Shown here piece after piece: positions 22,647-61,943 of a DNA stretch of 64,000 nt (its first letter is position 1; each line of letters begins with the position of its first letter). The notes beneath the pieces are model-generated. The model saw only the letters and a program-made list of their open reading frames with translations. It ran no database searches and was not told the origin of the DNA. The DNA is taken from positions 23,929 to 87,928 of the IMG/VR virus record IMGVR_UViG_3300027917_000032. One strand, given 5' to 3'. The translations under genes were made by a program, and so were the position numbers. This DNA comes from a virus.

Positions 22647-22675
22647 TGACGATAGCCTCAAGCTGGAGATACTTG

Positions 22676-25426: not shown

Positions 25427-25603
25427 ATGTACCGGATTATGATTTGCCAAAGCGTATGTGCTAGTGGCTCGGTAATCATCGCTCGAACGCTGGCAACATT
25501 ATACGAAAATGAAGTTCCTGATGATATTGAAACAATCGTTGAGGAACTTGGCGGCGACTACTACGACATTCAAAACGAGGAGGATGACGATGGCGAAAAT
25601 TGA
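25427..25603 (+). CDS. 58-residue acidic protein
   Basis: ATG at 25427 with AGGAG 6 bases upstream, TGA at 25601-25603. The peptide MYRIMICQSVCASGSVIIAR is followed by acidic TIVEELGGDYYDIQNEEDDD. It overlaps the next gene by 14 bases. No family is recognised, but the strong ribosome site and spacing make it a likely gene. Confidence 0.68.
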   Translation: MYRIMICQSVCASGSVIIARTLATLYENEVPDDIETIVEELGGDYYDIQNEEDDDGEN

Positions 25604-31257: not shown

Positions 31258-31640
31258 TATTCTCTCTCCTCAAACTCCAAGGTTAGGTCCATGACTTCTC
31301 CGCCAGGGAACCTGACTGCTCGACCACTCCCCGTGCTTTCAAATGGATTGTTCACCAAGTAACCAATCCAGATGTTACTATCATGGTCAATGACCTGAAT
31401 TGGCAGGCGGTAGTAGGCGTTGATAAAAACCCGTAATTCCAGAGCTTTATTTCGCGCTACAGTAAAGTCCCATTGAAGCCGTTTTCGCCCGCCCCGCGAT
31501 TTAACATAGGTGTAGGATGTTCCATCCATCGCCCGGCTAATCTGCATAGTCGAAGTCAGACCAACCGAGTCGCTAAACTTCGGGCTGGGCAACACCAATG
31601 TTACTTGGAGACTGGGGTAAGGTGCGCGTAGTGTAAACAT
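31257..31640 (-). CDS. Distal-tail-like minor tail protein
   Basis: A 127-residue beta-rich protein (MFTLRAPYPSLQVTLVLPSP). The carboxyl part (FINAYYRLPIQVIDHDSNIW..., EVMDLTLEFEERE) resembles the carboxyl part of the 489-residue neighbour (VGIIDWEGTQWVGII..., WTLTFEFEGT), so a beta domain is shared. It lies between the fibre-like protein and the tip protein, as distal tail proteins do. Confidence 0.68.
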   Translation of the reverse strand: MFTLRAPYPSLQVTLVLPSPKFSDSVGLTSTMQISRAMDGTSYTYVKSRGGRKRLQWDFTVARNKALELRVFINAYYRLPIQVIDHDSNIWIGYLVNNPFESTGSGRAVRFPGGEVMDLTLEFEERE

Positions 31641-42375: not shown

Positions 42376-42406
42376 TAGAAACCGGGCGGGACGTGCCCCG
42401 CCCGGT
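42376..42406 (-). terminator. Hairpin after the coat protein gene
   Basis: ACCGGGCGGG pairs perfectly with CCCGCCCGGT (10 bp, 6-base loop) 14 bases after the coat stop on the minus strand. Only TTTC follows, so termination may be partial or the hairpin may protect the coat mRNA 3' end. Confidence 0.7.
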
Positions 42407-42419
42407 AATCACGTCAAAC

Positions 42420-43838
42420 TTACGCAAGCAGCACGCAACCCAGGTCTTCATCGAGCAGCGCGACGCCGCAAAGCAGGTCGAGCGTAACGATAGTACCTTG
42501 GCTGGTAATATCGTACTGCATGGTCACACGCATGGCAACGTCGTTGTACGCACCGACGCTGGACCGGACACCCAGAGCGGTGTTCGGCAGCGACAGCGGA
42601 CGGCTGACGAAAGCCAGCGCATTCCGATGGAACGCGAGGTTCATGGACCCAGACGGGCCAGGGAACGCATCCTGGTTGTCAACCAGAGCGACCTCAAGCG
42701 GCCGATCCAGAAGCACCTTCGTATCATTCCCATCAGCCTCAGTGCTGATGACTGTATAGGTCCGACGATTGGCACCCACGCCAAACGCAAGCAGTTGGCC
42801 CTGCGAGACGTAGGTGGCATTACCACCCGCACCCTGCGACTCAAGTTGAATCTGCTTGGAGTAGCCAGCAGCATACCCCGCAGCATTATCAACCTGGCAA
42901 GCCTTGTAGACTGTGACCGCAGCGTTAGCCGCAACCGCAGACTCCAGACCGCTCACAAGCACGATGCTGTTGGTGTTTGTGCCGTCGTCCGTAGCACTGG
43001 AAATCACATGGGGCTTCCCTTCCGTGGCGACTGTGACGAACTCACCGTCAATCGCTGCGTAGTTAAGCACCACGCAGTTAAGGGTCGTCTCGCCAACGGG
43101 CTCCACTTCCTGCATCTCGCCGTCAACGTAATCCGTCGCGGACTTCAACGTGTAAGGCACGTTTTGATCCATGTAGGTATCAAACCCGAGCACACGACCG
43201 AGACTGGCATCCCGCAGAGCGGTGCCGTCGTCGCCACGCTTCTCAGCGCTGATGAACAACTCAGTCTTGAGGAGTTCGGTTTCCGCTTGAGGCGAAAGCA
43301 CAAGGTTACGGCCAGAGGCGTAAGCCTTGTTGACATTCATCTTCTCGCGGGCTTCGAGCAGGTAATCCTTGGCGTTGCTCTCGTCCATTTCGCCAAGAGC
43401 GCCAACACGGTTAGCAAGAAACTCATGCGCCTGACCGCACAGAATACGGTCAACCGAGCTAGCCATTTCTTGCGCGGCCGGGTCAAGGTAGTAGTCCACC
43501 AAATCTTGGAAAGACTTACTCGCCTCACCATCCTTGATGGTGAACGTCACATAGATGTGCTGATCCAGCGGAACCTGCACGTTTGTAGCCACCGCATCCT
43601 GGCTCACAACATCGTCTGCGTCCGTCTTACGAGCAGCAACAAACTGATTGGGCCGGCGCGTGTTCACAACGTCGCCAAAGTTGGCAACTTCCATGCTGAA
43701 ATCCCGGTGGACCAAGCGGGCCATGACCATGTTCTCTTCGAGAATCGCAAGACCCTCTTGAGCCCAAAGCTCGGGAATCAGCGCATCGTTGTCGTTGGCG
43801 TAGCAAGCCAACGTCGGAGTGCTGTAAAGCAAATTCAT
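42420..43838 (-). CDS. Major capsid protein (P22 coat-like, HK97 fold)
   Basis: A 472-residue protein. PELWAQEGLAILEENMVMAR, LVHRDFSMEVANFGDVVNTR and NLAFHRNALAFVSRPLSLP are typical of P22-type coats, and an insert-like region (residues 240-330, YAAIDGEFVTVATEG and following) may be the I-domain equivalent. The amino end MNLLYSTPTLACYANDND shares an LY...TLACY motif with the scaffold protein. AAAGGAGAAGCGCT precedes the ATG. Confidence 0.92.
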   Translation of the reverse strand: MNLLYSTPTLACYANDNDALIPELWAQEGLAILEENMVMARLVHRDFSMEVANFGDVVNTRRPNQFVAARKTDADDVVSQDAVATNVQVPLDQHIYVTFTIKDGEASKSFQDLVDYYLDPAAQEMASSVDRILCGQAHEFLANRVGALGEMDESNAKDYLLEAREKMNVNKAYASGRNLVLSPQAETELLKTELFISAEKRGDDGTALRDASLGRVLGFDTYMDQNVPYTLKSATDYVDGEMQEVEPVGETTLNCVVLNYAAIDGEFVTVATEGKPHVISSATDDGTNTNSIVLVSGLESAVAANAAVTVYKACQVDNAAGYAAGYSKQIQLESQGAGGNATYVSQGQLLAFGVGANRRTYTVISTEADGNDTKVLLDRPLEVALVDNQDAFPGPSGSMNLAFHRNALAFVSRPLSLPNTALGVRSSVGAYNDVAMRVTMQYDITSQGTIVTLDLLCGVALLDEDLGCVLLA

Positions 43839-43933
43839 AGCGCTTCTCCTTTGTTAAGATTTAGCCCTTTCACTAGGGCGAGGAAAACAGTTTTCGTCGC
43901 CCACTGGGCAACTTGACAACATGGCCCCTTTCT

Positions 43934-45698: not shown

Positions 45699-47495
45699 TT
45701 ACTCCTTGTCGTGGCCTTCGCCGCGTACTGGTTTTTCGGTGGTGTCGCTTAGTGTAGTGTCCGTTGCCTCTGCTCGTTCTTCCCTCCCCTCAGTCGCCGG
45801 ATCACCTGACAAATCATCCACGCCTCGCGCCGCTGGATTGTCGTCGGCTCCCTGGGCTTCCGCGATGCGTTTAACTCGCTCGACATGATCTATACGAGCT
45901 TGTAAGTATTCATCCTCATCGAAGCCCAGAGCCACAGATGCAGTTTTCTCCCCTACAAGCCCAGCCTCCTTTGCGCGGATGATTACCTCGGGATCGCTGG
46001 TCGTGTAGTCAGCCCGATCAATTTCAGAGAAGATTTTGTCCATTGTATCTGTGCTAACGCGACCGCCCAAAAGAGTAATGACAATGTTTTTTGATAGCTC
46101 TTTCTTGATCGTGTTACCCGGCACAGCGAACATTAACTCCGACAAGTCATCTGCCTCTTTAATTCGATCTTGGTCAGTTTTCAGGCTGTAGCGTTCTGGG
46201 TACTTGATAGTTGCTACCTGCCGACGATTAACGGCTCTTTCTTCGTAAGCTGCCCAGTGTTCCGCAATTCCTCGCTCGCCACCTTCCAAGATTAAGCCGA
46301 TGTAAGACAAACCGGACTCCAAACCTTGATCGCTCATTTTAAGAGCTTCGGCTGACGTGGCACGCTTACCTATCTTGTTTGTCACGGCAAGATTAACGAG
46401 CTTTCTAATATCGTCTTCCAACTTTTCCTGTAGCTTCAGGGACGCCTCCAATGGCTCGGGAGACGGGTGAATAAAGTCGGGTCGGTCTGTATTCAAACCA
46501 TAAATCCGACCGTGAGTTGCGCCAACCCTGATTTCTTTCCCCGCCGCTCGTTGACCCCCGGACATAGCCGAGCCATCGGGGTTGTTCATGTGCTTCAGGT
46601 GGTCGCCCACGGCTCGCGTGTCTTGCTGCTCGGTGTAGAACGGAAAATTTGCTTTCAAAGCATACGACACATCGCTGGATGTAAGATTCACCAACGCTGC
46701 CTGATGTTGCGACACGTCTTTCAGCAGGCTGTCACCAATATCCAACAAGACAAAAGGAATACGAGTCAAGTTCAAGACGATTGGCGTCCCATCAGAAGGC
46801 TCACCAGTTGGAGTGATCGGCTGTGATTCATCGTCGTAAAACTGCACGTTTACCAGCCCAGTCGCCTGGTCGATCCAGATTAGGCGGTATCGTTCAAACT
46901 CGCCGGAAGGTAGTTGAATATTGTAAATATCGTGGGAGGCATAATCAAGCCCAATATCCCGCAGTAAGAGGGCTTGAAAATCACTGGGATGTGTCGGATC
47001 ACTGGCTGACCAAGCCAGAATATCTTCGACTTGGTACATATAAAGGTAGGGACGAGCACCGCCCACGTCAGCCAACGTCGGGCCGCTGAGTTGCGGCATA
47101 TCGACATAGACGCCAACTTTTCCCATCACAAGTAGTTCCGTCAACACGTTAATACCTAGAAAGCCGCTCATAGAGCTTCCCCGCATATCAACGCCACCCA
47201 TCTCACCGGCAACGGCAACCCGATAATTCTTGGACCCACCAGACCTTACAATATCTCGCATACGTTGAAAAATCGCATTACGAATGTCATTGACAGCCGC
47301 TTTGGCGTAGGTTGGGGTGGGTGTGATACTGCGACGCGCATTATACTCGGCGTCTGTCTCTCGTTCGCTGAACTTTTGGAGATACAGATGAGTATAATCC
47401 TCACCACCATTGTATGTCTCGCGCCACGTTGTCCAGTACCCGGCGTCATGGAAGTACGTGGGGTGTCGTGTATCGTAAACTGAAAAGGATGCCAC
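45699..47495 (-). CDS. Portal protein
   Basis: A 598-residue protein. TYAKAAVNDIRNAIFQRMRD, LTELLVMGKVGVYVDMPQL and PYLYMYQVEDILAWSASDP are typical of the amino half of portals of this type. LNLTRIPFVLLDIGDSLLKD, HQAALVNLTSSDVSYALKAN and KRATSAEALKMSDQGLESG follow. The acidic tail (EERAEATDTTLSDTTEKPVR) is disordered. It starts at GTG with GGAGGTATAAA upstream and lies directly after the large terminase. Confidence 0.9.
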   Translation of the reverse strand: MASFSVYDTRHPTYFHDAGYWTTWRETYNGGEDYTHLYLQKFSERETDAEYNARRSITPTPTYAKAAVNDIRNAIFQRMRDIVRSGGSKNYRVAVAGEMGGVDMRGSSMSGFLGINVLTELLVMGKVGVYVDMPQLSGPTLADVGGARPYLYMYQVEDILAWSASDPTHPSDFQALLLRDIGLDYASHDIYNIQLPSGEFERYRLIWIDQATGLVNVQFYDDESQPITPTGEPSDGTPIVLNLTRIPFVLLDIGDSLLKDVSQHQAALVNLTSSDVSYALKANFPFYTEQQDTRAVGDHLKHMNNPDGSAMSGGQRAAGKEIRVGATHGRIYGLNTDRPDFIHPSPEPLEASLKLQEKLEDDIRKLVNLAVTNKIGKRATSAEALKMSDQGLESGLSYIGLILEGGERGIAEHWAAYEERAVNRRQVATIKYPERYSLKTDQDRIKEADDLSELMFAVPGNTIKKELSKNIVITLLGGRVSTDTMDKIFSEIDRADYTTSDPEVIIRAKEAGLVGEKTASVALGFDEDEYLQARIDHVERVKRIAEAQGADDNPAARGVDDLSGDPATEGREERAEATDTTLSDTTEKPVRGEGHDKE

Positions 47496-47507: not shown

Positions 47508-49175
47508 TCAGAGAAAAGTTCCAATGTCTCTGTTTGTTACTATTCCTGCGGCGAGCGGAAGACCAATCTCGGCATACGTCAGGGCGTGTGTGAAGTGATC
47601 GGCTCCGGTGTTGAGATACACTGCACGGGGGTTGTTTAGTTCATCGCGCTCATAAGTTCGCACTACGTTTTTGATGTGATCTTGAAACTCCATGCTGGTG
47701 TCCGCAGGCGTCCAAATGCGGCCGCTATGAAAACGTCCAAGAGCAGCATCAAGCCAGTTTGTTCTGTCAACAGTGGCGATTGGGGCACCGCCCTCCTCCT
47801 CTGACATTTGCATTTCCTTACCAGTTACACCGCGTCGGTATCGGCACAAAGTAACGTAGCCGGGAAACCGTCGAGCAAATCGCCGCGCATCATTGATTTG
47901 TGGGTCGGCATCAATTACGCAGGCTAAAACTTGCCACTCCCGCATAAGACGATCAAGCTCCTCGAAATTATCGCCTGGAATCTTTCCTTCCCAAAGCAAC
48001 TTGCCAAACGCCGCCGCATTTACGTCGTGACCGAAGGTATCCAAAATGTATTCCATTACAACAATGTAATTCCATTTACCTTGGTCAATTCCGAGTGTGA
48101 TACAACGCTCACCACCAACTTGCGGACGCGGGTCATTCTTTGAGTAACCTGCCCTAGAGTTTTCTAGCTCGGTATCTGTCACCAGGCCGCCAGCCGGGAT
48201 GTATGGTTGACCTAATTTGGAGTTATTGAACTCCACCATCGCCGCTTCATCGCCAAGTCCCCGAAAATGTGCTTGTACTAATTCACCGGGGGATACCGTG
48301 AAGCTGTAAAGCTGGTTAATATAGAAGCTGCGATGGTCATTGGCACTTGGTTCCGTAGGTTCCCATTTGCAGTTCTCTACGTTTAACCAACTTGCTTTGT
48401 CACGATGTTCTAGTTTACTTCCACACTCTTTACACTTCAGATAGGACTCCATGCACCGCCTATCTGATACTGTTTCACCGTAAATCTCAAGGCAATCCGG
48501 CCAAACAAGCTCGGTCCAACGACTACAGTGCGGGCACTTAAACATGAAATGTTCTTGCGTGCCTTGTTCATAAAGTTTATGGACGCCATATTTAGGCACT
48601 GTGGGAGTTGAAATCGCCCAGATTGCTTTCTCCTCGTGTCCTGACAACCGCTCTAAAGCCAACCAGATTTGTTTCTGATCCATTTCATTCACTTCGTCAA
48701 GGATCAGTGTTGACACTGGGATTGATTTCAGGTTGGAGTCCCCGCGTGAACCTCGAATGTAAAGGTTTGTTGTTCCCGCTTGCTTGAGTCCAATGGTATT
48801 GGTACTGGTGAAAAGACCTTTTAAGTAGTCACTGTGCATCAACGCTGTGTTAAAACGTGCTTTCGCAAAGTCGCTTGCATTGTTGAATGTGGGCAGGACG
48901 TAAAGTACATCTTTGCGAAGCACGTCCACGGTGTAGAAAGCTCGATTGATGGCGACTTCCGTCACGCCCATTTGAGCCGCCTTCATGGCCGTGTTATACG
49001 ACGTTTCTGAATCGTGAATTTCTACACACCAAGGATGGCGGTCAAACCCAAAGGGACCAGGAAACGGCTCTCCCATGATGCGGCGATGCGTGGCCCAGCG
49101 TGAACAGGAAGTCATGGTACGACTGGTAATGCCGTCCGCGATAGCTTCCCGAAATGCGTCCACCAGCTTGCTCAT
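47508..49175 (-). CDS. Terminase large subunit
   Basis: A 555-residue packaging motor of the lambda GpA type. Walker A variant KAAQMGVTE (65-73) and Walker B STLILDEVNEMD (155-166) mark the ATPase. Two CxxC pairs (CPHCSRW, CKECGSK) form a zinc insert typical of GpA-like enzymes. The nuclease domain has LGIDQGKWNYIVV, ACVIDADPQIN and GADHFTHALTYAEI as its acidic sites. The start follows the upstream stop by 4 bases with a GAAGAG site. The GpA type often goes with cos packaging, but no cos site was identified. Confidence 0.93.
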   Translation of the reverse strand: MSKLVDAFREAIADGITSRTMTSCSRWATHRRIMGEPFPGPFGFDRHPWCVEIHDSETSYNTAMKAAQMGVTEVAINRAFYTVDVLRKDVLYVLPTFNNASDFAKARFNTALMHSDYLKGLFTSTNTIGLKQAGTTNLYIRGSRGDSNLKSIPVSTLILDEVNEMDQKQIWLALERLSGHEEKAIWAISTPTVPKYGVHKLYEQGTQEHFMFKCPHCSRWTELVWPDCLEIYGETVSDRRCMESYLKCKECGSKLEHRDKASWLNVENCKWEPTEPSANDHRSFYINQLYSFTVSPGELVQAHFRGLGDEAAMVEFNNSKLGQPYIPAGGLVTDTELENSRAGYSKNDPRPQVGGERCITLGIDQGKWNYIVVMEYILDTFGHDVNAAAFGKLLWEGKIPGDNFEELDRLMREWQVLACVIDADPQINDARRFARRFPGYVTLCRYRRGVTGKEMQMSEEEGGAPIATVDRTNWLDAALGRFHSGRIWTPADTSMEFQDHIKNVVRTYERDELNNPRAVYLNTGADHFTHALTYAEIGLPLAAGIVTNRDIGTFL

Positions 49176-49179: not shown

Positions 49180-49584
49180 TTACTCTTCATCTTCCTCTTC
49201 TGCGGCTTCCCAAATACGCTCCCGTGGCTCCCAGAGTCTTTCGGGTGCCTCTTCCGGCTCGGGTTCCGGCTCGGGTTCCGGCTCGGGTTCCGGCTCGGGT
49301 TCCGGCTCGGGTTCCGGCTCGGGTTCCGGCTCGGGTGGCGCTAGCATCGCTTCCAAATCTTCCGGCTTATAACAGACCCATTGATTATCTTTCCACATCC
49401 GAGAGTGACCGCGAACACCGGCGTCATCCCGGCTTTCACAGACGATGGTAAGTATGTCATCTTCGTTCGCGGGAAATTCCACCAGCGGTGTTGAACTGCC
49501 TCGGAGATTGACCACGCCCCCATCTTTCATGTATAGCGTAGCGTAATATCGCGGGTAGTGCAGAAACGGACAAGCAATTTGCAT
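49180..49584 (-). CDS. Protein with long Pro-Glu repeat
   Basis: A 134-residue protein. Residues 1-80 are a compact domain (RYYATLYMKDGGVVNLRGSS, DILTIVCESRDDAGVRGH). Residues 82-113 are an uninterrupted Pro-Glu series, followed by an acidic helix with ERLWEPRERIWEAAEEED. The repeat would form a stiff rod. GGAGTAAACC precedes the ATG. It lies just before the large terminase gene, so a packaging or head role is possible. A small terminase is not excluded but not supported. Confidence 0.7.
   Translation of the reverse strand: MQIACPFLHYPRYYATLYMKDGGVVNLRGSSTPLVEFPANEDDILTIVCESRDDAGVRGHSRMWKDNQWVCYKPEDLEAMLAPPEPEPEPEPEPEPEPEPEPEPEPEPEPEEAPERLWEPRERIWEAAEEEDEE
49252..49335 (-). repeat. Seven 12-bp repeats coding Pro-Glu
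   Basis: Seven perfect copies of TTCCGGCTCGGG on the plus strand. On the minus strand they code PEPE units. The perfect identity suggests recent slippage expansion and likely variation between isolates. Confidence 0.95.
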
Positions 49585-49587
49585 GGT

Positions 49588-49932
49588 TTACTCCTCATCA
49601 AGAATTTCGTCAATGTCACGCCCTTCGCCCCGCCGAGCGGCGTCACGAGCTTCCTCCACTGTTTCAGGGTCCGGCCCTAGCATCAGTGGTGCCAGCATAA
49701 GCAGAATCTTGAGAATAGTCGGCCAGTTTTCCTTGAACCACTCCCAAATCTTCTCCATGTCCAAGCCGTCTTGCCAAGGTGTGCGACATGTTCGCTCCAC
49801 TTCAGCCTGCCAACGAGCAACCAACTCGGGGTTTTGGACAGCTTCCTTAACCTGCATGTATTCTTCCGGCGTTAGGCGACCCCGCCAATAGGCCCATCGC
49901 GCCACTCGTTTTGCTTTTCGACCGAAGTTCAT
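49588..49932 (-). CDS. Membrane-associated hypothetical protein
   Basis: A 114-residue protein with a basic amino end (MNFGRKAKRVARWAYWRGRL), a helix LTPEEYMQVKEAVQN, and one membrane segment WPTILKILLMLAPLML (residues 69-84) before an acidic tail. The amino half resembles J-domain-free phage proteins only loosely. It is the first of several envelope-directed genes here. GGAG lies 7 bases before the ATG. Confidence 0.68.
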   Translation of the reverse strand: MNFGRKAKRVARWAYWRGRLTPEEYMQVKEAVQNPELVARWQAEVERTCRTPWQDGLDMEKIWEWFKENWPTILKILLMLAPLMLGPDPETVEEARDAARRGEGRDIDEILDEE

Positions 49933-49934
49933 GG

Positions 49935-50237
49935 TTATTCTCCTTCCAAGGCGTCAAGAGCTAGGAAAAGGTACGCAATCCCAGCCGACGCAAGTCCAGA
50001 AATGGCGACTACACTCATCGTGTAGACGGCCCACTGGGCGAGATTAGTAACTTGCATCCACAGTGGAGTGAGGGCAAGGGATAACCAATGGCTCACGCAC
50101 CAGGGGCAGTGGATTAGCTTCTCGAACCACGGGCCATTCTTTGACACCCACGCTCGCAGTGGTGCGCCCGCATGAGTAGTCGAGATTGTCATGGACGTTG
50201 CAGCGACCGCTAGCCCAAGTACGATGAGGTTTTCCAT
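49935..50237 (-). CDS. DUF1360-like membrane protein
   Basis: A 100-residue protein with three hydrophobic segments (IVLGLAVAATSMTIS, WLSLALTPLWMQV, AVYTMSVVAISGLASAGIAY). The central LIHCPWCVSHWLSL is the Cys-pair motif of DUF1360 proteins found in Bacillus spores and many phages. A dithiol in the membrane next to the thioredoxin gene is suggestive of redox work, but this is inference. The ATG overlaps the upstream stop (TGATG). Confidence 0.75.
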   Translation of the reverse strand: MENLIVLGLAVAATSMTISTTHAGAPLRAWVSKNGPWFEKLIHCPWCVSHWLSLALTPLWMQVTNLAQWAVYTMSVVAISGLASAGIAYLFLALDALEGE

Positions 50238-50677
50238 CAGTATAGCTCATAATTGGATTTGTTCTTCCGCAAGGTTTTAAGGAGTTCCTCTTTAGTTACA
50301 ACACCGACATGGCGTGTTACCTCCTCCTCATCTTGGTAGATTACGGCTGTGGGCAGTGTTCGGACACCCATCTTACGCGCAAGTTTTCGGCTCTTGTCGT
50401 AATCATACACATAGACTGTGTATCCTTCTTTTCGCAACGCTTCAACAATCGGCTCCATCTTTTTGCATGACGCGCACCACTTAGAAGTCCACAGTACCAA
50501 GCAATTTGGTGCCCAATTCTCTGTCACCAGGAGGAAGGGGAGCTGGATGCCTCGCTCTAATCGCTCAGGCGGCACCCATCCTTGTTTACAAATACTTGCG
50601 GGAGCCACTCCCGTCGCCAAAACAAGGGCGAAAATTATGTAGCACACCGCCAGAAAACCAAAAATCTTCCCTTTCAT
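50237..50677 (-). CDS. Membrane-anchored or exported thioredoxin
   Basis: A 146-residue protein. A hydrophobic amino segment (FGFLAVCYIIFALVLATGVA, residues 6-25) serves as signal or anchor. The thioredoxin domain follows with TSKWCASCKKMEPIV (active Cys 68 and 71) and the cis-proline loop VRTLPTAVIY. It would act outside the cytoplasmic membrane on disulfides. The ATG at 50677 is preferred (GAGGA 4 bases upstream) over an earlier start. It lies between the DUF1360-like protein and the papain-like protease, which itself needs a reduced cysteine. Confidence 0.88.
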   Translation of the reverse strand: MKGKIFGFLAVCYIIFALVLATGVAPASICKQGWVPPERLERGIQLPFLLVTENWAPNCLVLWTSKWCASCKKMEPIVEALRKEGYTVYVYDYDKSRKLARKMGVRTLPTAVIYQDEEEVTRHVGVVTKEELLKTLRKNKSNYELY

Positions 50678-50684
50678 CACATCC

Positions 50685-51692
50685 TCACCACAGTATATAA
50701 TCGGGAACGTCTCGCTGCGGATAGCCAACGTACCCGCTCAATGCTATACTGTCCCCTTGCTTCATGGCCGCGTCCACTGTCGCTGCGTCACACCAATAGC
50801 TTCCCGCAGGTTGCTCATGGCGTGTTGGTCCGCTGACCCAATTCTCGCCCCAGGAGTTTACTACCAGGGCTCCCGGTCTGCGGTATTCATCATCGACGCC
50901 CAAAATAACCTGGGCGTGATACCAAGGTTTTCGGCGTCGTCTCAAAAACCCATCTTTGTCCCGTTTTGTCCAGAAGCCGATGTTACAACACATCACAACC
51001 GGATAGCCATTCGCCACGGCATCCCGGCACTCTTCCCACGACCGAACCAGGGTACACGTTTGTAGCGGGTGGAGCTTGCACAATGGTTCAAGTGCGTCAG
51101 GCACGCCCGCTCCATACCGGCCCATTTGACGGGCCTTTGCTCCACTGTATGTTGTAAAATCGTACTCGCCATCAAGGTAGGACTGCCGCAAGAGAACGCC
51201 CCAATCTCGACAAAACTCGGCCGCCAGCGTGCCGGTAGTGCCATCGTATGTGAGCTTTCTACGACTCATCCCGCCTGTTTCAATACGCGCGCCGGCGTAA
51301 ATTATCTCCGTGGCCGCTTTAGCAACCCAGCGTTCAGGCATGTTAAACGAGGCGATTCGTACCGCTGTAAGCACGTCAATTCCTAAGCCAAACGCCTGTC
51401 CAACACAGTCACCTACGGTTTGTTTATGAGGCTGAAGGGGCCAACCAGTGACTTGCTCGTAGGCTTTCCACAAGAAAACCTTACGACCTTTCCCGGTGTC
51501 TTTAATTTGGCTATTGTACTGACTTAAAAATGGCCGCCGATGCCGCTGAATAAAGCGATCCCGGATTGTTGCGTCATCGACCCATCCAGCGTACAGTGGC
51601 GAGTCGTCATCTTCCCCCGCCCGCAGGAAGGAACCTGTAGACAGGCTTCCAATGCCGCCCAAAATGAGCTTCAACACATCACGTCGCTTCAT
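50685..51692 (-). CDS. Papain-like (C1A) cysteine protease with twin-arginine-type signal
   Basis: A 335-residue protein. The amino end MKRRDVLKLILGGIGSLSTG has the RR-x-hydrophobic form of a Tat signal. The catalytic set of papain is visible: oxyanion Q91 and C96 (KQTVGDCVGQAFG), H259 (KPWYHAQVILGVDDE) and N279 (LVVNSWGENW). It would be folded in the cytoplasm and exported. It may cut envelope proteins at lysis or entry, or process virion proteins. No classical peptidoglycan hydrolase was found in the window, so a lysis role is possible but unproven. GGGAG lies 6 bases before the ATG. Confidence 0.85.
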   Translation of the reverse strand: MKRRDVLKLILGGIGSLSTGSFLRAGEDDDSPLYAGWVDDATIRDRFIQRHRRPFLSQYNSQIKDTGKGRKVFLWKAYEQVTGWPLQPHKQTVGDCVGQAFGLGIDVLTAVRIASFNMPERWVAKAATEIIYAGARIETGGMSRRKLTYDGTTGTLAAEFCRDWGVLLRQSYLDGEYDFTTYSGAKARQMGRYGAGVPDALEPLCKLHPLQTCTLVRSWEECRDAVANGYPVVMCCNIGFWTKRDKDGFLRRRRKPWYHAQVILGVDDEYRRPGALVVNSWGENWVSGPTRHEQPAGSYWCDAATVDAAMKQGDSIALSGYVGYPQRDVPDYILW

Positions 51693-51702: not shown

Positions 51703-52497
51703 CTAACGTGGGTCGAACATCGTGGCGTAAGCCAACAGCCCTTCTGCGATTTCTCGCCAAATTTTCGCGTGCTGCTCCGGTGTTTTGAGATGCCCGGCGT
51801 CAGCCTGCCGCTTTAGCTCTGTCTGCAACTTACTCAAAACTGGCATCCAGTTAGCTAGAGATTCGCCCAGGGCGACACGATTTGCTTGACCTGTCGCTTG
51901 GCTAATTTCTTCTGGGGTTGTGTAGGCACCGCCCGCGATAGCAGCAGCGATGCTTTCAAAACTCTCGGCCAGAGCTAAGGCTTCTCCCGGCTCTCGCTTA
52001 GCTTCAGCACACCAGTAGGGAATCCATGCCATGAGCCCTGCTTCGGGCGATGGCTTTTCGACAACGGGGTATTCAATCGTGGGGTCAGGATCGCCAGGAT
52101 TAACAATATGTACGACATGCGTCATTACGTCCACGAATCCGTCTTTGGCACAAGCAACGACAAACATATACGAGCCCACTTTTCGGGCGCTGAAAACAGC
52201 CCGGCGACCGCCATCGTATACTTCAAAGTCAACTGAGTCGGGCACCAGCAGCCACTTGAAAGAGTCCGCGATACTTGTCGATACATCCAGGCGGATCAAT
52301 TCGCCAACCAGGCCCTTGTCCGGTGCAACTAAGGCAATCTGAGCCCTTTCGACAGCCTCCGCTGACACCACCACGGGCGGCGAGTGATGCCCGTTCGTAC
52401 CGGCCAATCCCGGCTCAACAGGGCTGGTATTGGCCCCAACGGCCAACACTAGCATCAGAAGGACCGCGCCCGCAAAATTTCTCATGCCGCTTCGCAT
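51703..52497 (-). CDS. Exported protein with PKD-like domain
   Basis: A 264-residue protein with a signal peptide (MRNFAGAVLLMLVLAVGANT). A beta domain follows (residues 40-120) with LVGELIRLDVSTSIADSFKW, DGGRRAVFSARKVGSYMFVV and VDVMTHVVHIVNPGDP, a PKD/Ig-like pattern, and then a helical domain (EALALAESFESIAAAIAGGA and on). The ATG at 52497 has AGG upstream; an ATG 4 codons on is possible. Similar signal plus PKD proteins are frequent in planctomycetes, which is a weak host hint. It is likely periplasmic or surface-bound. Confidence 0.72.
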   Translation of the reverse strand: MRSGMRNFAGAVLLMLVLAVGANTSPVEPGLAGTNGHHSPPVVVSAEAVERAQIALVAPDKGLVGELIRLDVSTSIADSFKWLLVPDSVDFEVYDGGRRAVFSARKVGSYMFVVACAKDGFVDVMTHVVHIVNPGDPDPTIEYPVVEKPSPEAGLMAWIPYWCAEAKREPGEALALAESFESIAAAIAGGAYTTPEEISQATGQANRVALGESLANWMPVLSKLQTELKRQADAGHLKTPEQHAKIWREIAEGLLAYATMFDPR

Positions 52498-52505: not shown

Positions 52506-52703
52506 TCAAAGTTTGATTTTTACGGATTGGTCGTGACCATGCCAACGTAATTGACGAGTGAGCCAACAGTCTTCGCAGTAATTACCGCTATAGCGAAGTA
52601 CATTTCCGCAGGCGCAGCGTCGTGTTTCATCTACTTCACTCGCTTGCACCGGTACGTGCGCTTGTTGTAAAGCTCGTCGCCTACGTTGTCGCCTGGATCG
52701 CAT
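52506..52703 (-). CDS. Small Arg-rich zinc-ribbon protein
   Basis: A 65-residue protein: MRSRRQRRRRALQQAHVPVQ, then a ribbon RRCACGNVLRYSGNYCEDCW with two CxxC-type pairs, then a basic end. TGATG overlap with the upstream gene. Possibly a nucleic-acid or protein adaptor. The function is unknown. Confidence 0.65.
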   Translation of the reverse strand: MRSRRQRRRRALQQAHVPVQASEVDETRRCACGNVLRYSGNYCEDCWLTRQLRWHGHDQSVKIKL

Positions 52704-52939
52704 CAGTCATCCCAGCCAAAAAGTGCGGACAACATCGCCCACAGTTCCAGAATCAGGTCAATCAGGGTGTGAATTTCCTCGGGGTCAATGTCCAATTCCT
52801 CTGCCGCCACAAGAACGGCTGCTTGCGCGTCCGCATCCTTCGAGCGGAGTTTACGCATAAACACACCAGAACGAAGACCGAGCATCCTACTAGCCCGTCG
52901 CACGACCTTCAACGCATTACGTCTTTCCCGCAGCTTCAT
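52703..52939 (-). CDS. Hypothetical protein with basic head and acidic helical tail
   Basis: A 78-residue protein. MKLRERRNALKVVRRASRML is a strongly basic helix; the second half (AAVLVAAEELDIDPEEIHTL, IDLILELWAMLSALFGWDD) is acidic then amphipathic and could insert in a membrane or bind a partner. GGGAG lies 7 bases before the ATG. The family is not recognised. Confidence 0.62.
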   Translation of the reverse strand: MKLRERRNALKVVRRASRMLGLRSGVFMRKLRSKDADAQAAVLVAAEELDIDPEEIHTLIDLILELWAMLSALFGWDD

Positions 52940-52949: not shown

Positions 52950-53138
52950 CTACTTGTTGAGTCTACTAAATGTCTGTGCCAAAATGCACCGCTTCTTTGC
53001 CAACGGGCTTAATTTATCGGCTGGCTGCGCACAAAACGCCTGCCACGTTGAGAAGCCCGCTCGCTTTGCCATTTCCGTTAAGGCACCCTCCTTAATGTCC
53101 GCTTGCTGAATCCATTTCTTCTTTTTCTTTTTCGCCAT
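52950..53138 (-). CDS. Small Lys-rich phage protein
   Basis: A 62-residue protein (MAKKKKKKWIQQADIKEGAL..., LSPLAKKRCILAQTFSRLNK). Short proteins beginning MAKKKWIQ.A.KKGAL with a distal K..L..T are common in phages; their role is unknown. AAGGTGG precedes the ATG. Confidence 0.75.
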   Translation of the reverse strand: MAKKKKKKWIQQADIKEGALTEMAKRAGFSTWQAFCAQPADKLSPLAKKRCILAQTFSRLNK

Positions 53139-54990: not shown

Positions 54991-56799
54991 TTACTCGTCT
55001 GGAATCATTAGTACCGTTAGAGACAACCCAGTGCTACTGCTAATTGTCTCAGTGATGGGTGAACTCCGATAAAACGGCGTGGCCGACGATTTTCGCGCCT
55101 TGCCAATAACATTTTGGTCAGTGGACAAAGATCGCGTATCGCTAACTTGGCCCGAAACATTTGTAGTTTCATTGAAGATCACGGTCGTTGAGGTAATTGT
55201 ACCTGTCGCTGGACTTGTGGCCGTATCGGTCATTGTATAGGTGTAGCCATTTACACCAGTGACAGTGATTTGGTATGCCCCATTGTAGGCTTCTTGGTCT
55301 GCGCCTTCAATAAGTACCCAGTCATCAGTTGCCAATCCATGCGCCGTGTGCGAAACAGTAGCCGTTGTTCCTGAGCTAGTAATCGAAATCGACTCTTGGT
55401 AGTTCAAATCCCCCGTTGCGTCAGCCGCATATAACAGTACTCGCGCTCCAGAAATCACGCCAAAAGTAGTCGCATCTTTTACTGTGATAAGGGTGGTGAC
55501 AGGATTAGTAACAAATGTGACCGTGCTTCCGCCAGTATTATAGCTGTTCGCATATCCAGATGCGTTATTGACAAGGTAAATCGTGGCCGCTGATCCTGAC
55601 GTGTTATTCACGTCGTAGTTTCCGGCCTCGTCATCGAACACGAAATTGTCAAAGGTCGGGGTGGTGGAGTCACTACTGGCGTCGTATTCTACGCCATTAT
55701 CGCAGTTGTAGAAAAACAAGTCACTGATATTTGAATCATCAGATGGATACAGTAGGGCTCCCGTTGTCCCCACATAATTTCTAAACGTGCATAGCTCAAA
55801 AGTACTCGTGCTTGGATCAACTTGCTGGCAGTCGATGAAACTTGTCGATGTTACTTCACTCGTCGAAGCAAAATCGCAAGTCGAGGCTCTAATAAAAGTG
55901 GAGCCATCAATCGTCACATTACTATTCGTGTCGCTCGCGTCTACCGAAAAGCGCGTAGTGGCGGTCGAGCCCGCCCCTTTACACACCAAACGATTAACGG
56001 TAGCCGTACAGCCAGAGCCAGAGAACGTCAGCGTATAGAAGCCCGAAGCTACCTGACCTTCACCATCTGCATTTCGGTCCTTAAAAATGAGTGTTTCGTC
56101 GGCTGATTGAAAAGTAGTAGTCGTAGCGCCATTACCTATTAGCAACTTACCTTGACAAAAGATAACGCCGTCTTTGGTTTCCAAAATACCATAGCGATAT
56201 GTTGACGACTCATCAATAGCTGCCGCATCAGCCAGATCGAAGGTTGTGCCCGTGAGTGTCAGCCCGGTGCCGTAGCGTACAACGTCGTTCCACTGGTTGT
56301 CGATAATTCGGATATTGCCCGAATTGGAAATATCAACGTACCAAGTGATAACATCAATATCCGACAAACTCAATGTACCACTGCTCGCGTATACGTCCGT
56401 AGTGCTATTCACGTCTAGCACAAAGCACTTCCACTCACCGCCCCAGGTATCACTACCGGCGATGTGCCACTCTTTGTAGTTACCAGAGCCGTCTGTCAAA
56501 CGAATATGGTAGCCCGAGGTATTGGTTGTACCTGTTGTCTTAACCTCCATGAAAGGCGCTACGTCATTTTTAGCCCACCAATACAGGTGTGTGCCAGTCG
56601 CACTCATATCAAGATTAGTCGTCGGCGTGAACGTACACGAGGTACGTGAGTTTTTCGCCGCTTGCCAGGTGTATGAGCCATTCCCTTGAATCTTGACTTC
56701 AGTATCGGCATCGCCCGAATCACCTGACCATGTACCTTGGGACGAGGCGGTATCGGCATCGGATACTAGCGACAAATTTGCCGTCACTGTGACTGCCAT
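54991..56799 (-). CDS. Large beta-structured fibre protein
   Basis: A 602-residue protein. The first 200 residues are a jelly-roll or lectin-like domain (SCTFTPTTNLDMSATGTHLY, NTSGYHIRLTDGSGNYKEW, KCFVLDVNSTTDVY). The middle is repetitive, Thr/Ser/Asp-rich and probably beta-helical (NVTIDGSTFIRASTCDF, STFELCTFRNYVG). The end has a fibronectin-like stretch (TATVSHTAHGLATDDWVLI). It is likely a receptor-binding or decorating fibre. Confidence 0.75.
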   Translation of the reverse strand: MAVTVTANLSLVSDADTASSQGTWSGDSGDADTEVKIQGNGSYTWQAAKNSRTSCTFTPTTNLDMSATGTHLYWWAKNDVAPFMEVKTTGTTNTSGYHIRLTDGSGNYKEWHIAGSDTWGGEWKCFVLDVNSTTDVYASSGTLSLSDIDVITWYVDISNSGNIRIIDNQWNDVVRYGTGLTLTGTTFDLADAAAIDESSTYRYGILETKDGVIFCQGKLLIGNGATTTTFQSADETLIFKDRNADGEGQVASGFYTLTFSGSGCTATVNRLVCKGAGSTATTRFSVDASDTNSNVTIDGSTFIRASTCDFASTSEVTSTSFIDCQQVDPSTSTFELCTFRNYVGTTGALLYPSDDSNISDLFFYNCDNGVEYDASSDSTTPTFDNFVFDDEAGNYDVNNTSGSAATIYLVNNASGYANSYNTGGSTVTFVTNPVTTLITVKDATTFGVISGARVLLYAADATGDLNYQESISITSSGTTATVSHTAHGLATDDWVLIEGADQEAYNGAYQITVTGVNGYTYTMTDTATSPATGTITSTTVIFNETTNVSGQVSDTRSLSTDQNVIGKARKSSATPFYRSSPITETISSSTGLSLTVLMIPDE

Positions 56800-56810
56800 G
56801 CTTTACTCGC

Positions 56811-58517
56811 TTAAACGTCAGGAGTGCGGATCGCGGTAGCACTACCGCCATTAGAGCCTAGTGTACCAGTCGTCTCAAAGGTCTTGATCGGCGTACCTCC
56901 ACCGTCACGAACGCGAATAAACAGCGTCCTATCCGAGTTATACACAGTTGTAAATGCTTCGTTTGCCGCCGCCGCCAGCTTATCAATGTACGCCAAAAAG
57001 ACATTGTTACCAGCCGTGGCGTCATCTGGGTCTTGCCAGTCGGAGGAGGCGATGGTAAACTCGTCATCGCCATCGTGGGCCGTATAAGCAACTAGTCGGT
57101 ATCGACCATCGTCCAATTGAACTCGCAACTGACCAGTAGAAGGCGTATCCGCAGGAATGTTCCCTGTGCCAACATTAACAGTGTTTTCGGCAGGACCACT
57201 CAGCGTAACGCCTAGCGTCATCTGATCGTAGTCAATATTTGACGAAGCATCATTCGTGACCAAGACGCGATCCTCACCACTCTCCAACCCGAATACTGTG
57301 AATGTCACGTTATTCGGAGGCAGAACTTGAGCATTGTTCAAGTCAAAAACTTTATCCGCCGCCGACAGATCAGCCTTTTCAATACCGACGCCATAAGCGC
57401 CAATGATAGCCGAGCCGGTCGAGACACCGATGAAGGGTGTGGAAATTGTCCGCTCAGTGACAGTCCCCGCCGTTCCTGTCGCGCCACCATTTCCAGTAAT
57501 GGTATTCGCGTTAGGCGGCACGCCTGTCAAGAGTTGCAGCCACAGTTTTGACGTAGAAGTAGCATCGGTATCGTCAACCGCCAAAAGTTGACCAGTACCA
57601 GCCGTTGCTCCCGTGCCCCAGGAAAGTGATTCGGGCTCAACCCAGGTGCCCGTACCTGGAGTGATAGCGACCTGATGCGTGATGCCGCGAAATAGCTCAC
57701 CGTTCAAGCCATACAGCGTCGAGCTAGAACCGTCCCGAGTAAGCCACTTCATTCGTTCGTAGAAGTCGTTGATCGAACGAGTTGGCTGATTAGTGTTCCA
57801 CTCGCTGTAGTAATACTCATCAACGCTATTGTTGTCTACGTCGATATTGGCATAACCTTCCGTTGTATTGGTAATACCAGTCCAACCTGAGACAGTACCT
57901 TCAGCCGTCTCATTGTTCAAGTCATTACTGTCAGTCAACGCAAGCACATTATTACCACGCGATGTGCCATTGATCTTGAACTCGGAGTAGGTGTTTCCAA
58001 ATGTTCTCGATGTACCAATGAGACGCCGACCATCAATATCGGCCCCTGCTGTGCGAGTCTTAATCATAAAACGGTGCGAGATACCCGCTGTTGCGTCCGC
58101 ATTAAGACCGCCCCCACCGAAATTCCACCAGTCGTCGCTCAAGACTGCGCCATCTTGAATAATCTGAATCTGCACGTCAGAATTGCCGAAGTTTACGATA
58201 CCATCGTAATATTCTTCGGTGCCACCCGTGCCCTGAATGATGGACCCATCATAAAGATGCTCGGCAGCCATATCGTCAATATTGTAACTGCCCTTCAACG
58301 TGATAATGTTGTCAGTGGATCGTTCAGATGGCGTAGCGTCCGTAATGTCTAATTGGTCATCGCCAGAACTCACTTCTTGATCTGCAAAGTCTTGCAGCCA
58401 ACGATGGAATTGAATCACAGTAGCGTAGCTAGGTGACGCCCCACCGTGGTCATCGCCAATATACCGAATATTTCCCGTGGACCGTGTGATAGTCCAGTCG
58501 CCGTCTACCATCGCCAT
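56811..58517 (-). CDS. Large virion fibre or appendage protein
   Basis: A 568-residue protein (MAMVDGDWTITRSTGNIRYI...). An amino-terminal beta part (SYATVIQFHRWLQDFADQEV, YYDGIVNFGNSDVQIQIIQD) recurs in phage appendage proteins, followed by Gly/Thr-rich strands and a carboxyl part with FLAYIDKLAAAANEAFTTV and RTLFIRVRDGGGTPIKTFET. GGAG lies 7 bases before the ATG. Confidence 0.75.
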   Translation of the reverse strand: MAMVDGDWTITRSTGNIRYIGDDHGGASPSYATVIQFHRWLQDFADQEVSSGDDQLDITDATPSERSTDNIITLKGSYNIDDMAAEHLYDGSIIQGTGGTEEYYDGIVNFGNSDVQIQIIQDGAVLSDDWWNFGGGGLNADATAGISHRFMIKTRTAGADIDGRRLIGTSRTFGNTYSEFKINGTSRGNNVLALTDSNDLNNETAEGTVSGWTGITNTTEGYANIDVDNNSVDEYYYSEWNTNQPTRSINDFYERMKWLTRDGSSSTLYGLNGELFRGITHQVAITPGTGTWVEPESLSWGTGATAGTGQLLAVDDTDATSTSKLWLQLLTGVPPNANTITGNGGATGTAGTVTERTISTPFIGVSTGSAIIGAYGVGIEKADLSAADKVFDLNNAQVLPPNNVTFTVFGLESGEDRVLVTNDASSNIDYDQMTLGVTLSGPAENTVNVGTGNIPADTPSTGQLRVQLDDGRYRLVAYTAHDGDDEFTIASSDWQDPDDATAGNNVFLAYIDKLAAAANEAFTTVYNSDRTLFIRVRDGGGTPIKTFETTGTLGSNGGSATAIRTPDV

Positions 58518-59776: not shown

Positions 59777-60526
59777 TCAAAAGGATTCATCTTTGTATCG
59801 GTGACACGCACTTGATCGCGCCTTTACATTGAACAAATCTTGTAACTGGCACTCAAGGTGAGGATTATTGTCATCAATGGCGCATTGTTGTGCGAGTAAA
59901 TTCCGCAGTGAAGCAGTCGGCCAGCGAATTGTCTCGTCGGGACGGTAGAGAAGTGTCGCATCCTCGGGTAAGTCGTCACCTAGTCCCGGTGGCGGCGGCC
60001 CATAAAGTCCAAGTTCGTACATCACCGACCATGTATATCTGATTTTGTCCTGGCCGTTTTGCGTTGTCTCTACTGGAAGTGACGCGCCGGTATCATAGTT
60101 GTAGACATACAGGCTCCAATTTTGCCGCTTCACCGAGTCTCCAGTGTATTCAAAATAGATCGGCGGCGTCTTGAACGTCCCTCCTGAAAGTAACACATCA
60201 CCATCCGTGTACCCAGCTACGTTTGCCGTAAACTCTTGGTCTACGATAAGTTGAATACCGTTTAACGGAAACCACTCAGGGAGATATTGGGTGGCAAATG
60301 TCAACCCGTCCGAAACGCGTGTGAATTGCAATACTGCCGATTGGCCGGGAGGTACGTATCCCAGGTAGGTTTGCTTCTCGTCCATCGGCAAGTAAGCAGC
60401 ATTGTGCTCGGGGTCGGTGCGTCTGAGATGCCACTGCATCTCTTGATACGCAACACGTCGTTGCCCGATGTAGGGGTACTCCCCTATGACAACCTGATTC
60501 GCAAACCAGTCGGAAAAGACGCCCAT
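59777..60526 (-). CDS. Triplicated family, copy 3
   Basis: A 249-residue protein. The amino end MGVFSDWFANQVVIGEYPYI with QRRVAYQEMQWHLRR and the end RWPTASLRNLLAQQCAIDDN with LECQLQDLF match the next two genes upstream. The middle is a beta domain (TFATQYLPEWFPLNGIQLIV, YFEYTGDSVKRQNWSLYVY). It is probably a virion-associated or early late-phase protein. GGAG lies 5 bases before the ATG. Confidence 0.72.
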   Translation of the reverse strand: MGVFSDWFANQVVIGEYPYIGQRRVAYQEMQWHLRRTDPEHNAAYLPMDEKQTYLGYVPPGQSAVLQFTRVSDGLTFATQYLPEWFPLNGIQLIVDQEFTANVAGYTDGDVLLSGGTFKTPPIYFEYTGDSVKRQNWSLYVYNYDTGASLPVETTQNGQDKIRYTWSVMYELGLYGPPPPGLGDDLPEDATLLYRPDETIRWPTASLRNLLAQQCAIDDNNPHLECQLQDLFNVKARSSACHRYKDESF

Positions 60527-60528
60527 AA

Positions 60529-61242
60529 CTACTCCACGTTCAAAAGATCGAGAAGTTGGTCTTCCAGTGCTGGGTTATTGTCCTCAATTGCTGCTTGCTT
60601 GGCGAGCATCATTCGCAACGACGCACTCGGCCACCAAGCAAGTTTGTCTGGAGTGTTCAGTAGCTTGAAGCCTTTGGGTAAGAGATGCCCTTGCGGTGGC
60701 AAATCGTACAAGCCAATGAGTCCCAGAGCGTACAACACTGCCCAAGTATAGCGGGTTGATTGCCCATGCCGGTATGTTACTGTGGCGAGCGGGCCGCTGT
60801 TGAAATAGGTAAACTCGCCCTGCAAGTCGCCCCAGTTTCGGAAGTCGCCGCCAACATAAGAAATAAGTAATGGCGACGTCGTGCTAACCGATCCACTAAT
60901 GCGTACAATATCACCATTCTGATAACCGGGAATAACGCCGTTGCAGCCGTTGTTAATGGCTGTGTTAACGACGTTTGGCTGTTGGTCATTACCCGTATCT
61001 ATCTCCGACGATGTAGCCTGAATACCATTAGGGTCCGTGATGGTGAGCGTGTACTTTGAAAACACATGTCCAATCGACGTAACGCCTTGTATCTCGTTTG
61101 AAAATTCAAAGGAGGGGTGCATATCTGCCGTATTACGCTTAATCAATTGCGTAATTTCTTGATACGCCACCCGTCTCGGACCCGAGCGGGGTGGAATACC
61201 TAATACAACCTGATTATCGAACCACTCTGAAATCGCGCTCAT
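60529..61242 (-). CDS. Triplicated family, copy 2
   Basis: A 237-residue paralogue: MSAISEWFDNQVVLGIPPRS, PRRVAYQEITQLIKR, a beta middle (YTLTITDPNGIQATSSEIDT) and the end WWPSASLRMMLAKQAAIEDN with LEDQLLDLLNVE. The ATG overlaps the upstream stop (ATGA). The function is unknown. Confidence 0.72.
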   Translation of the reverse strand: MSAISEWFDNQVVLGIPPRSGPRRVAYQEITQLIKRNTADMHPSFEFSNEIQGVTSIGHVFSKYTLTITDPNGIQATSSEIDTGNDQQPNVVNTAINNGCNGVIPGYQNGDIVRISGSVSTTSPLLISYVGGDFRNWGDLQGEFTYFNSGPLATVTYRHGQSTRYTWAVLYALGLIGLYDLPPQGHLLPKGFKLLNTPDKLAWWPSASLRMMLAKQAAIEDNNPALEDQLLDLLNVE

Positions 61243-61943
61243 CGTCTTACTCGAAAAAGATCATTTAACCGTGCGCGAAGCTCGACGCTTTCATCCTCGA
61301 TACTAGCTTGTTCGGCTAACACTGCTCGAAGCGAGGCGCTCGGCCACTTAGGATTTTCACCAGGGGAGGTTAAAAGTGTCTCTGGCAACGTTCCCCACGG
61401 CGGCGGCTCTTTAATCATCCCCAAGCTGTGCATCACGGCCCATGCGTGTCGATTCGGTTGACCGTAAGTAGTTGTAAGATCGTAGTAATAGACAGGGCTC
61501 GGAGTGGTTCGCACGATCTTTAATGCGGCCCAGGGTTTACTCTGAACGGAAGTTCCACTGAGCGTGATTGAAAGATAAGGTGAACTCGTCAGCGAACCTG
61601 CGACAACTGCGTGCGCCTTGGCCCACGAGGGCACTTCTTGACTAAACGCTGTATCTACGGCATTTTCAACTTCTCTTTTGTCATCGACCCAGGAGATAGG
61701 GACGGATTCGTACACATTCCCAGACTTAAAGAATGTGAAGACGAATTTGCAAACTTCAAAAGTCTGCAAGCCTTCATTCATCTGGTAGACGGTGTTTCGC
61801 TCTTTGAAGTCGGCATCCGGCTCCGGGTCGAAGCGGCTTTCGAGCCGTTTAAGTTCGCGGTAGGCTTTGCGACGTGCCCCATTTTGCAACGCAGGGCCAT
61901 CAAACAGTGGTGTCACATAGATAAAATCGCTGTATACGCCCAT
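61239..61943 (-). CDS. Triplicated family, copy 1
   Basis: A 234-residue paralogue and the second gene of unit L2: MGVYSDFIYVTPLFDGPALQ, ARRKAYRELKRLESRFDPEP, and the end KWPSASLRAVLAEQASIEDE with LRARLNDLFRVRR. All three copies keep the W-P-(S/T)-A-S-L-R and (A/S)IxD motifs at the end. AGGAGTAGC precedes the ATG. Confidence 0.72.
   Translation of the reverse strand: MGVYSDFIYVTPLFDGPALQNGARRKAYRELKRLESRFDPEPDADFKERNTVYQMNEGLQTFEVCKFVFTFFKSGNVYESVPISWVDDKREVENAVDTAFSQEVPSWAKAHAVVAGSLTSSPYLSITLSGTSVQSKPWAALKIVRTTPSPVYYYDLTTTYGQPNRHAWAVMHSLGMIKEPPPWGTLPETLLTSPGENPKWPSASLRAVLAEQASIEDESVELRARLNDLFRVRR

Follow-up and report, generated by a model that had tools for sequence, protein, structure and literature searches.

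A predicted Tat-type papain-like peptidase and a thioredoxin conserved upstream of the phage terminase gene: a possible envelope-opening cassette

A papain-like cysteine peptidase with a predicted export signal of the twin-arginine translocation (Tat) type and a thioredoxin are encoded side by side in virus record IMGVR_UViG_3300027917_000032, and the two form a conserved pair just upstream of the gene for the terminase large subunit (TerL). The window analyzed comprises 64,000 nucleotides (bases 23929–87928 of the 87,928-base record), and positions refer to it unless the record or a locus is named. We estimate the probability that the papain-like enzyme is a cysteine peptidase that acts late, in the envelope, and helps to open the cell at about 0.5; that the cassette as a whole acts in the envelope is, judging from the encoded sequences, very likely. 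The original prediction had combined the same enzyme, the thioredoxin and a small DUF1360 protein into an envelope-acting protease system used at lysis or exclusion; both reading frames are present as described, and the association of peptidase, export signal and thioredoxin recurs in related contigs.

Regarding the peptidase, the AlphaFold model of the 335-residue protein is confident (mean predicted local distance difference test score, pLDDT, 85.9; predicted template modeling score, pTM, 0.85), and among solved structures it is best matched by that of xylellain, a papain-like protease of bacterial origin (Foldseek E 8.3e-10), with a VIA-align Z of 22.7 and a root-mean-square deviation (rmsd) of 2.8 over 243 residues at 17% identity; on this model, the protein is a papain-fold enzyme and a predicted peptidase. 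The Cys-His-Asn set is complete, with Q91, C96, H259 and N279 followed by Ser-Trp-Gly, and it is kept in the relatives: among 26 of them Q91, C96 and H259 are identical in 26/26, N279 in 24/26 (Thr in L061, Gln in L095), and Ser-Trp-Gly follows in 26/26. A second cysteine, C235, is near-invariant (24/26), and it is thinkable from this conservation that the catalytic cysteine is held in a disulfide through C235, a gating like that of P1 Lyz.

As for its family, the only Pfam match of the window protein is to PF13529 (E 0.015); it does not match Peptidase_C1 (PF00112) at E ≤ 1 and so does not reach the curated cut-off of that family. Within the 26 relatives, PF00112 is matched by eight at E ≤ 1 (best 0.0034) and PF13529 (C39_2) by 14 (best 0.0017), and the profile of the 26 finds cathepsins in the PDB, with a best E of 0.0025, around the His and Asn motifs; the protein is accordingly classed as papain-like and not as a PF00112 member. 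Pfam scans of the window protein and of the 26 relatives found no known peptidoglycan-hydrolase domain; the protein is not filed as a member of an endolysin family but may still act like one. Used as a single query, it matches none of 50,697 phage records, and it retrieves one short stretch in IMG/VR and 11 bacterial loci, these over the C-terminal half and chiefly near the His and Asn motifs; the distant relative L180 likewise finds none in the 50,697 phage records. Selection is strongly purifying, with a ratio of nonsynonymous to synonymous substitution (dN/dS) of 0.04–0.21 in unsaturated pairs, by simple counting in the 45 closest of 144 pairs.

Scanning of 152 loci for intein junction patterns revealed inteins in the papain gene of 10 distinct contigs (with L028/L156, L044/L163 and L091/L153 each counted as one contig). 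In seven loci (L028, L038, L090, L091, L122, L124, L162) the intein stands directly before the catalytic cysteine, which is its +1 splicing residue, and in five (L023, L044, L046, L091, L162, the last by its left junction only) directly after NSWG; L091 and L162 appear to have both. Inteins favor conserved sites in important genes, and their position at the active-site motifs fits a key enzyme.

The export signals were called at motif level, by script and by eye. The N-terminus of the window enzyme, MKRRDVLKLILGG, has an arginine pair followed by a hydrophobic stretch and is Tat-like by eye, and this twin-arginine start is shared by most relatives. Among 80 TerL-related loci, 40 gave a papain match, 33 of them with an open reading frame (ORF) complete at both ends; the Tat motif is found in 29 of these 33 (the script counted 30, and L089 was excluded since its arginine pair is not at a Tat-type start), is absent from L061 and L095, and lies in an upstream frame-shifted part in L041. 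In a second set, collected with a papain profile, 63 of the 73 relatives with a complete 5′ end carry a Tat-type arginine pair (54 by script, five as KR within MKRR, four by eye). The Tat profiles give matches in part of the 26 relatives (PF10518 in 9/26 at E ≤ 1, TIGR01409 in 10/26 at E ≤ 0.1); the window protein matches neither.

The two sets of loci were obtained from IMG/VR, one with the TerL query (80 related loci) and the other with the papain profile A1 (241 relatives, the best 80 of which were kept); 31 contigs of the profile set were already in the first one, which leaves 89 distinct contigs overall. The recurring order is PKD protein (p287 in the window), papain-like peptidase, thioredoxin, DUF1360 protein in some, a protein with one transmembrane segment (the 114-residue family), TerL and portal; since dozens of viral contigs repeat it, the pairing exceeds chance. 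Where at least 3.5 kilobases (kb) are available before TerL (31 loci), a papain relative is encoded in 28 and a C39-like peptidase in the other three (L070, L080, L081); 24 of the 28 papain relatives have the Tat motif, a count that leaves out L041, L061, L089 and L095. The same 31 loci encode the thioredoxin in 30 cases (not in L095), the PKD protein in 27, the 114-residue family in 20 and the DUF1360 protein in 10. When the threshold is lowered to 2.5 kb before TerL, 40 of 42 loci have a peptidase, and across all 80 TerL loci the thioredoxin lies downstream of the peptidase in 46/46 having both. The best 80 of the 241 papain loci encode within their flanks the thioredoxin in 78 cases, TerL in 70, the 114-residue family in 67, p287 in 65 and DUF1360 in 19. 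The composition foreseen by the original prediction, with DUF1360 as the third part, has therefore to be loosened: this protein is an optional member of the cassette, and the PKD and one-segment proteins are steadier companions.

In the three loci with the C39-like peptidase, a name that stands for motifs read by eye and has less support than the papain assignment, the slot before TerL contains a C92-like protein, the C39-like protein, a thioredoxin-like anchored protein, a transmembrane protein and the thioredoxin. Scanning with the C39-like proteins of the three loci retrieved 52 loci, with thioredoxin in 42 and TerL in 37; by script, the 50 members complete at the 5′ end have a lipobox in 33 cases, another signal in 16 and an RR motif in one (L230). 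The sequences thus suggest that two peptidase families, each with export signals, occupy the same slot beside the thioredoxin. The profile of the three proteins found nothing in the PDB, the L080 member has no Pfam or PHROG family match, and the C39-like protein used as query found nothing in the 50,697 phage records. Two side observations concern these loci: a YiiX/C92-like protein, recognized by eye, lies beside the C39-like peptidase (L080:3545–4102, L070:4319–5041), with relatives in 43/52 C39-like loci and a PHROG match that bears an unrelated name; and in L076/L077 (the region of L221/L222) the C39-like gene is truncated and runs into the thioredoxin region, either by deletion or by assembly error.

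As for the thioredoxin, its identity is well supported (PF00085, E 4.3e-14, 52.8 bits against a cut-off of 23.5; phrog_22 thioredoxin domain, E 4.7e-10), with a WCASC motif and an N-terminal hydrophobic segment. The listed ORF (50237–50728, minus strand) begins at a TTG at 50728 and so reaches into the papain gene; translation probably starts at the ATG at 50677, 7 nucleotides past the papain stop. The script covered 78 thioredoxins that adjoin a papain relative and marked 58 as exported (56 with a signal or transmembrane segment, two with a lipobox) and 20 as having neither; by eye, the latter comprise 14 without a signal, two with a weak hydrophobic start (L052, L158) and four out-of-frame matches. 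Since some signal-less thioredoxins stand beside Tat-type proteases, reduction outside the membrane is not the rule for all, and this weakens the earlier suggestion that the thioredoxin reduces the protease there; because Tat carries folded proteins, the thioredoxin could also act before export. In searches, the thioredoxin found no IMG/VR relative and matched 36 of the 50,697 phage records, a rough background given the differing search sensitivity; none of these thioredoxin-bearing phages matched the papain protein. That the thioredoxin serves the peptidase is, from sequence, a tentative assignment that falls somewhat short of even odds.

The original prediction had also noted that no ordinary endolysin was visible, and this holds within the searches made, namely eight Pfam families and the matches listed for most ORFs of the window's record. 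None of nine related records (51–128 kb) matched Amidase_2 (PF01510), SLT (PF01464), Phage_lysozyme (PF00959), NLPC_P60 (PF00877), M23 (PF01551), Amidase_3 (PF01520), M15_3 (PF08291) or CHAP (PF05257). Of 14 control genomes, between 3 and 11 gave a match to each of these families. For PF01510, nine further large records were likewise negative, as was the 128 kb relative G001 when scanned again (0/10). No lysis family other than phrog_2252 occurs among the matches listed (the best 25 of 48, 33, 35 and 75), and weaker matches are possible. The phrog_2252 family, named "endolysin; inhibits RNA polymerase" (record 49500–50042; window 25509–26354, plus strand), was rejected as probably mislabeled because it is co-located with the dATP/dGTP diphosphohydrolase PF18909: it occurs in 7/9 records, the same seven and at overlapping positions. 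A papain relative is found in seven of the nine records, and G004 is of the C39-like type. Among the genes common to the 88, 128 and 125 kb records, a signal or transmembrane segment, judged from crude hydropathy or a Tat motif, is present in p287, the papain-like enzyme, the thioredoxin and the tape measure. The two findings that would undo the earlier proposal, a classical endolysin elsewhere and a cytoplasmic protease, were not obtained: no such endolysin turned up in these searches, and the protease has a predicted export signal.

Taken together, the proposed mechanism is as follows. The papain-like enzyme would be expressed with the packaging genes and would fold in the host cytoplasm; the host Tat system would move the folded enzyme across the inner membrane, and there it would cut an envelope protein or peptide, contributing in this way to cell opening at the end of infection and replacing or supplementing an endolysin. 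The thioredoxin would tend the thiols of the enzyme, usually outside the membrane, so that Cys96, and perhaps also Cys235, is kept in or returned to the reduced state; the one-segment protein may set the timing in a holin-like manner, and the PKD protein may be an anchored adaptor or a substrate binder. These phages may therefore open the host envelope by a protease and not by an ordinary cell-wall lysin. A more elaborate version appears doubtful: a lineage without muralytic endolysins, in which the Tat-exported enzyme is inactive in the oxidizing envelope, with Cys96 perhaps bonded to Cys235, and is switched on by the phage thioredoxin, would practice a redox-timed protease lysis, perhaps for hosts with protein-based wall strength; the sister clade would use a lipoprotein-type C39-like peptidase instead, and in some members intein splicing at the catalytic cysteine would add a further activation step.

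Several points weigh against a role of the papain-like enzyme in opening the cell. Many of the loci are near-identical or related, so that the counts given above are not independent; 10 of the 73 papain relatives lack the Tat motif; the 14 thioredoxins without a signal, several of them near-identical, belong here too, though the adjoining proteases retain this motif wherever their 5′ end is available. L045 and L054, with 2.7–3.0 kb upstream of TerL, have neither protease nor thioredoxin. L054 belongs to record G006, which has no wall-hydrolase match and also lacks peptidase and thioredoxin in the 3.0 kb before TerL, where its contig ends; because G004 and G006 share it, the absence of wall-hydrolase matches is not specific to papain carriers. 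The records may moreover be fragments, and a missing end could hold the endolysin. Papain-like C1 enzymes commonly have proteins as substrates, and the papain protein showed no domain for wall binding. Finally, a cytoplasmic C39-like protein (record 22364–22873; L015:10364–10873) is conserved in all three large records. This last protein, a second papain-fold candidate, is the best rival lysin: it is signal-less, it keeps its Cys and His motifs by eye (WSCLPTSFAM ... GHAVAWDG), and it has homologues in G001 (32%) and G002 (51%). If it, or another unrecognized enzyme, were the true lysin, released by a holin, for which a number of small membrane proteins encoded at other places of the record would be suitable by eye, the papain–thioredoxin pair would be an accessory, for instance an outer-layer or spanin-like helper or a scavenger of host proteins. 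Such a scheme is unlikely, as the C39-like protein is distant from the late genes and adjoins a sigma-like gene (by eye), has no Pfam or PHROG family, and it is the exported pair that recurs beside TerL.

A different use of the exported protease would be the cleavage of host surface proteins during infection, with receptor destruction, superinfection exclusion or surface remodeling as the outcome. Tat export, which places the enzyme outside the inner membrane of a still-intact cell, and the PKD partner, which resembles domains of surface proteins, speak for it; we nevertheless consider it improbable, because the position among the packaging genes suggests late expression, the sole PADLOC match among nine proteins is a chance-level one (thioredoxin–Cas10, E 0.012), and the missing endolysin would stay unexplained. 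Even less probable, and indeed remote, is a role as a virion or entry factor, or in processing phage proteins outside the cytoplasm: the papain gene does lie between long fiber-like proteins (54991–58517, by eye) and structural genes, but an export signal would remove the enzyme from virions that assemble in the cytoplasm. A separate question, which does not exclude any of the others, is whether the thioredoxin merely shares the operon and serves nucleotide metabolism or general redox. This would agree with its 14 signal-less members and with the phages that have a thioredoxin and no papain match; it is, however, rather unlikely in view of the invariable placement downstream of the peptidase, its persistence where the C39-like peptidase replaces the papain-like one, and the signal, anchor or lipobox of 58/78 members (script), which fits nucleotide metabolism poorly.

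Compared with known systems, a Tat-exported, thiol-dependent lysis enzyme would resemble phage Mu gp22 and P1 Lyz, which are lysis enzymes exported via host routes, the latter under thiol control; both are Sec or signal-arrest-release (SAR) lysozymes and not Tat-type papain enzymes, and we know of no dedicated thioredoxin for secretory or SAR endolysins. Phage thioredoxins (phrog_22) are usually cytoplasmic; the proteins described here share the domain and differ in the export features of most members. Xylellain and the bacterial C1 peptidases share the papain fold and the Gln-Cys-His-Asn set with the window enzyme, which differs in being phage-borne, in its Tat motif, in its conserved cassette before TerL and in the lack of a Pfam C1 match at E ≤ 1. 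Papain-fold phage proteins are not new in themselves, since Foldseek against BFVD (predicted viral proteins) gave 27 matches at E ≤ 0.001, among them proteins named Peptidase_C1 or Peptidase C1A from uncultured Caudovirales phages and one from Streptomyces phage Shady; the likeness is in fold, by which alone they were compared, at 7–20% identity. Some of the fold matches among viral proteins bear lysin names, that to a Mycobacterium phage Lysin A being weak (E 4.8e-3).

Cysteine peptidase folds also act at lysis in the CHAP, NlpC/P60 and N5 endolysin domains: the N5 "C39-like" domain of mycobacteriophage Lysin A is described as belonging to the papain family (PMC3314691), and CHAP lysins are described as well (PMC10318531). 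In contrast with CHAP and NlpC/P60 enzymes, for which the nine records gave no match, the window protein has its own export signal and a thioredoxin neighbor. The Tat route is feasible, because in one described secretion system a Tat signal peptide fused to an endolysin compensated for an absent holin (PMC9527704). Among the titles and abstract openings listed for open-license papers, none shows a papain enzyme of Tat type that stands where an endolysin would and has a thioredoxin of its own.

The genes from p287 to the portal protein, in the order p287, papain-like enzyme, thioredoxin, DUF1360, 114-residue protein, 134-residue protein, TerL and portal, are tightly packed on the minus strand (Table 1). 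The DUF1360 gene lies just beyond the region 50237–51692 to which the original prediction was assigned; its product belongs to PF07098 (27.9 bits, the cut-off being 21; phrog_781, E 1.9e-8) and has its CxxC as CPWC; it is an optional member here. In the p287 model an N-terminal hydrophobic segment is followed by a PKD-type domain and a helical bundle; the best match of its beta domain is a collagenase PKD (Z 11.6, rmsd 2.0 over 81 residues), chagasin is not among the matches listed, and an identification of p287 as an Ig-type, chagasin-like protease inhibitor, which was considered, is not favored by these matches. Members of the 114-residue family begin with basic residues, contain a stretch rich in Trp and end in a hydrophobic helix, and the protein is a candidate holin by shape alone.

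Table 1. Features of the cassette and of its surroundings in the window
Feature	Position	Strand	Basis
Papain-like cysteine peptidase, Tat-type, 335 residues	50685..51692	-	ORF, active-site residues, fold model
Codons of the papain-like peptidase	Q91 51420-51422; C96 (catalytic) 51405-51407; C235 50988-50990; H259 50916-50918; N279 50856-50858	-	
N-terminal signal of the papain-like peptidase, KRR motif, residues 1-26, Tat-like	51615..51692	-	motif by eye; Tat profiles match relatives only
Thioredoxin, N-terminal hydrophobic signal/anchor and WCASC, 146 residues from ATG	50237..50677	-	PF00085
DUF1360 small membrane protein, CPWC, optional cassette member	49935..50237	-	PF07098
114-residue protein, basic N-terminus, Trp-rich stretch, one C-terminal hydrophobic segment; candidate holin	49588..49932	-	shape by eye
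134-residue protein with PE repeat tail, immediately before TerL	49180..49584	-	
p287, N-terminal anchor/signal, PKD-type beta sandwich, linker, C-terminal helical bundle	51703..52497	-	model and fold matches
Three small proteins; in some loci their relatives precede the cassette	52506-52703, 52703-52939, 52950-53138	-	
Terminase large subunit (TerL), GpA type; anchor for finding related loci	47508..49175	-	
Portal protein, next after TerL	45699..47495	-	

Other observations were made along the way. Regarding the contigs, the TerL of L016 (IMG genome number 2654587967) is identical, and the guanine-plus-cytosine content of the 80 papain loci spans 0.36–0.64, from which the phages probably have several hosts. 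Two further anchored proteins were noted: a membrane-anchored trypsin-like protease at L015:1828–2451 (record 13828–14451; PF13365, E 4.9e-23), for which BLAST at E 1e-5 gives a homologue in neither G001 nor G002, and a protein at L014:5293–5754 with a HEAMHD motif, perhaps a metallopeptidase, which matches neither a Pfam nor a PHROG family at E ≤ 0.1. A 507-residue frame at 42393–43916 (plus strand) is antisense to the gene at 42420–43838 and is open in G002 too (45%); it is probably a by-product of codon use. At 59777–61943 there are three tandem related proteins (249, 237 and 234 residues), all three matching the same single G002 gene at 29–32%, and G001 has an ORF of about 14.7 kb (record 87002–101689; L107/L108) with 40% to the 489-residue protein of window 31640–33109.

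In conclusion, if the reading of the papain-like enzyme as an envelope-opening peptidase is true, this would be a phage lysis carried out by an exported protein-cleaving enzyme, not by a wall hydrolase, with its own thiol partner, in a lineage that lacks sequence relatives among the 50,697 phage records; it would allow a direct test of whether an endolysin can be dispensed with in favor of envelope proteolysis, and it would supply Tat-exported cysteine peptidases. Should the lysis role fail, the conserved pair of exported peptidase and thioredoxin, with two alternative peptidase families found in one slot and inteins lying at both active-site motifs, would still mark a strongly selected envelope function.

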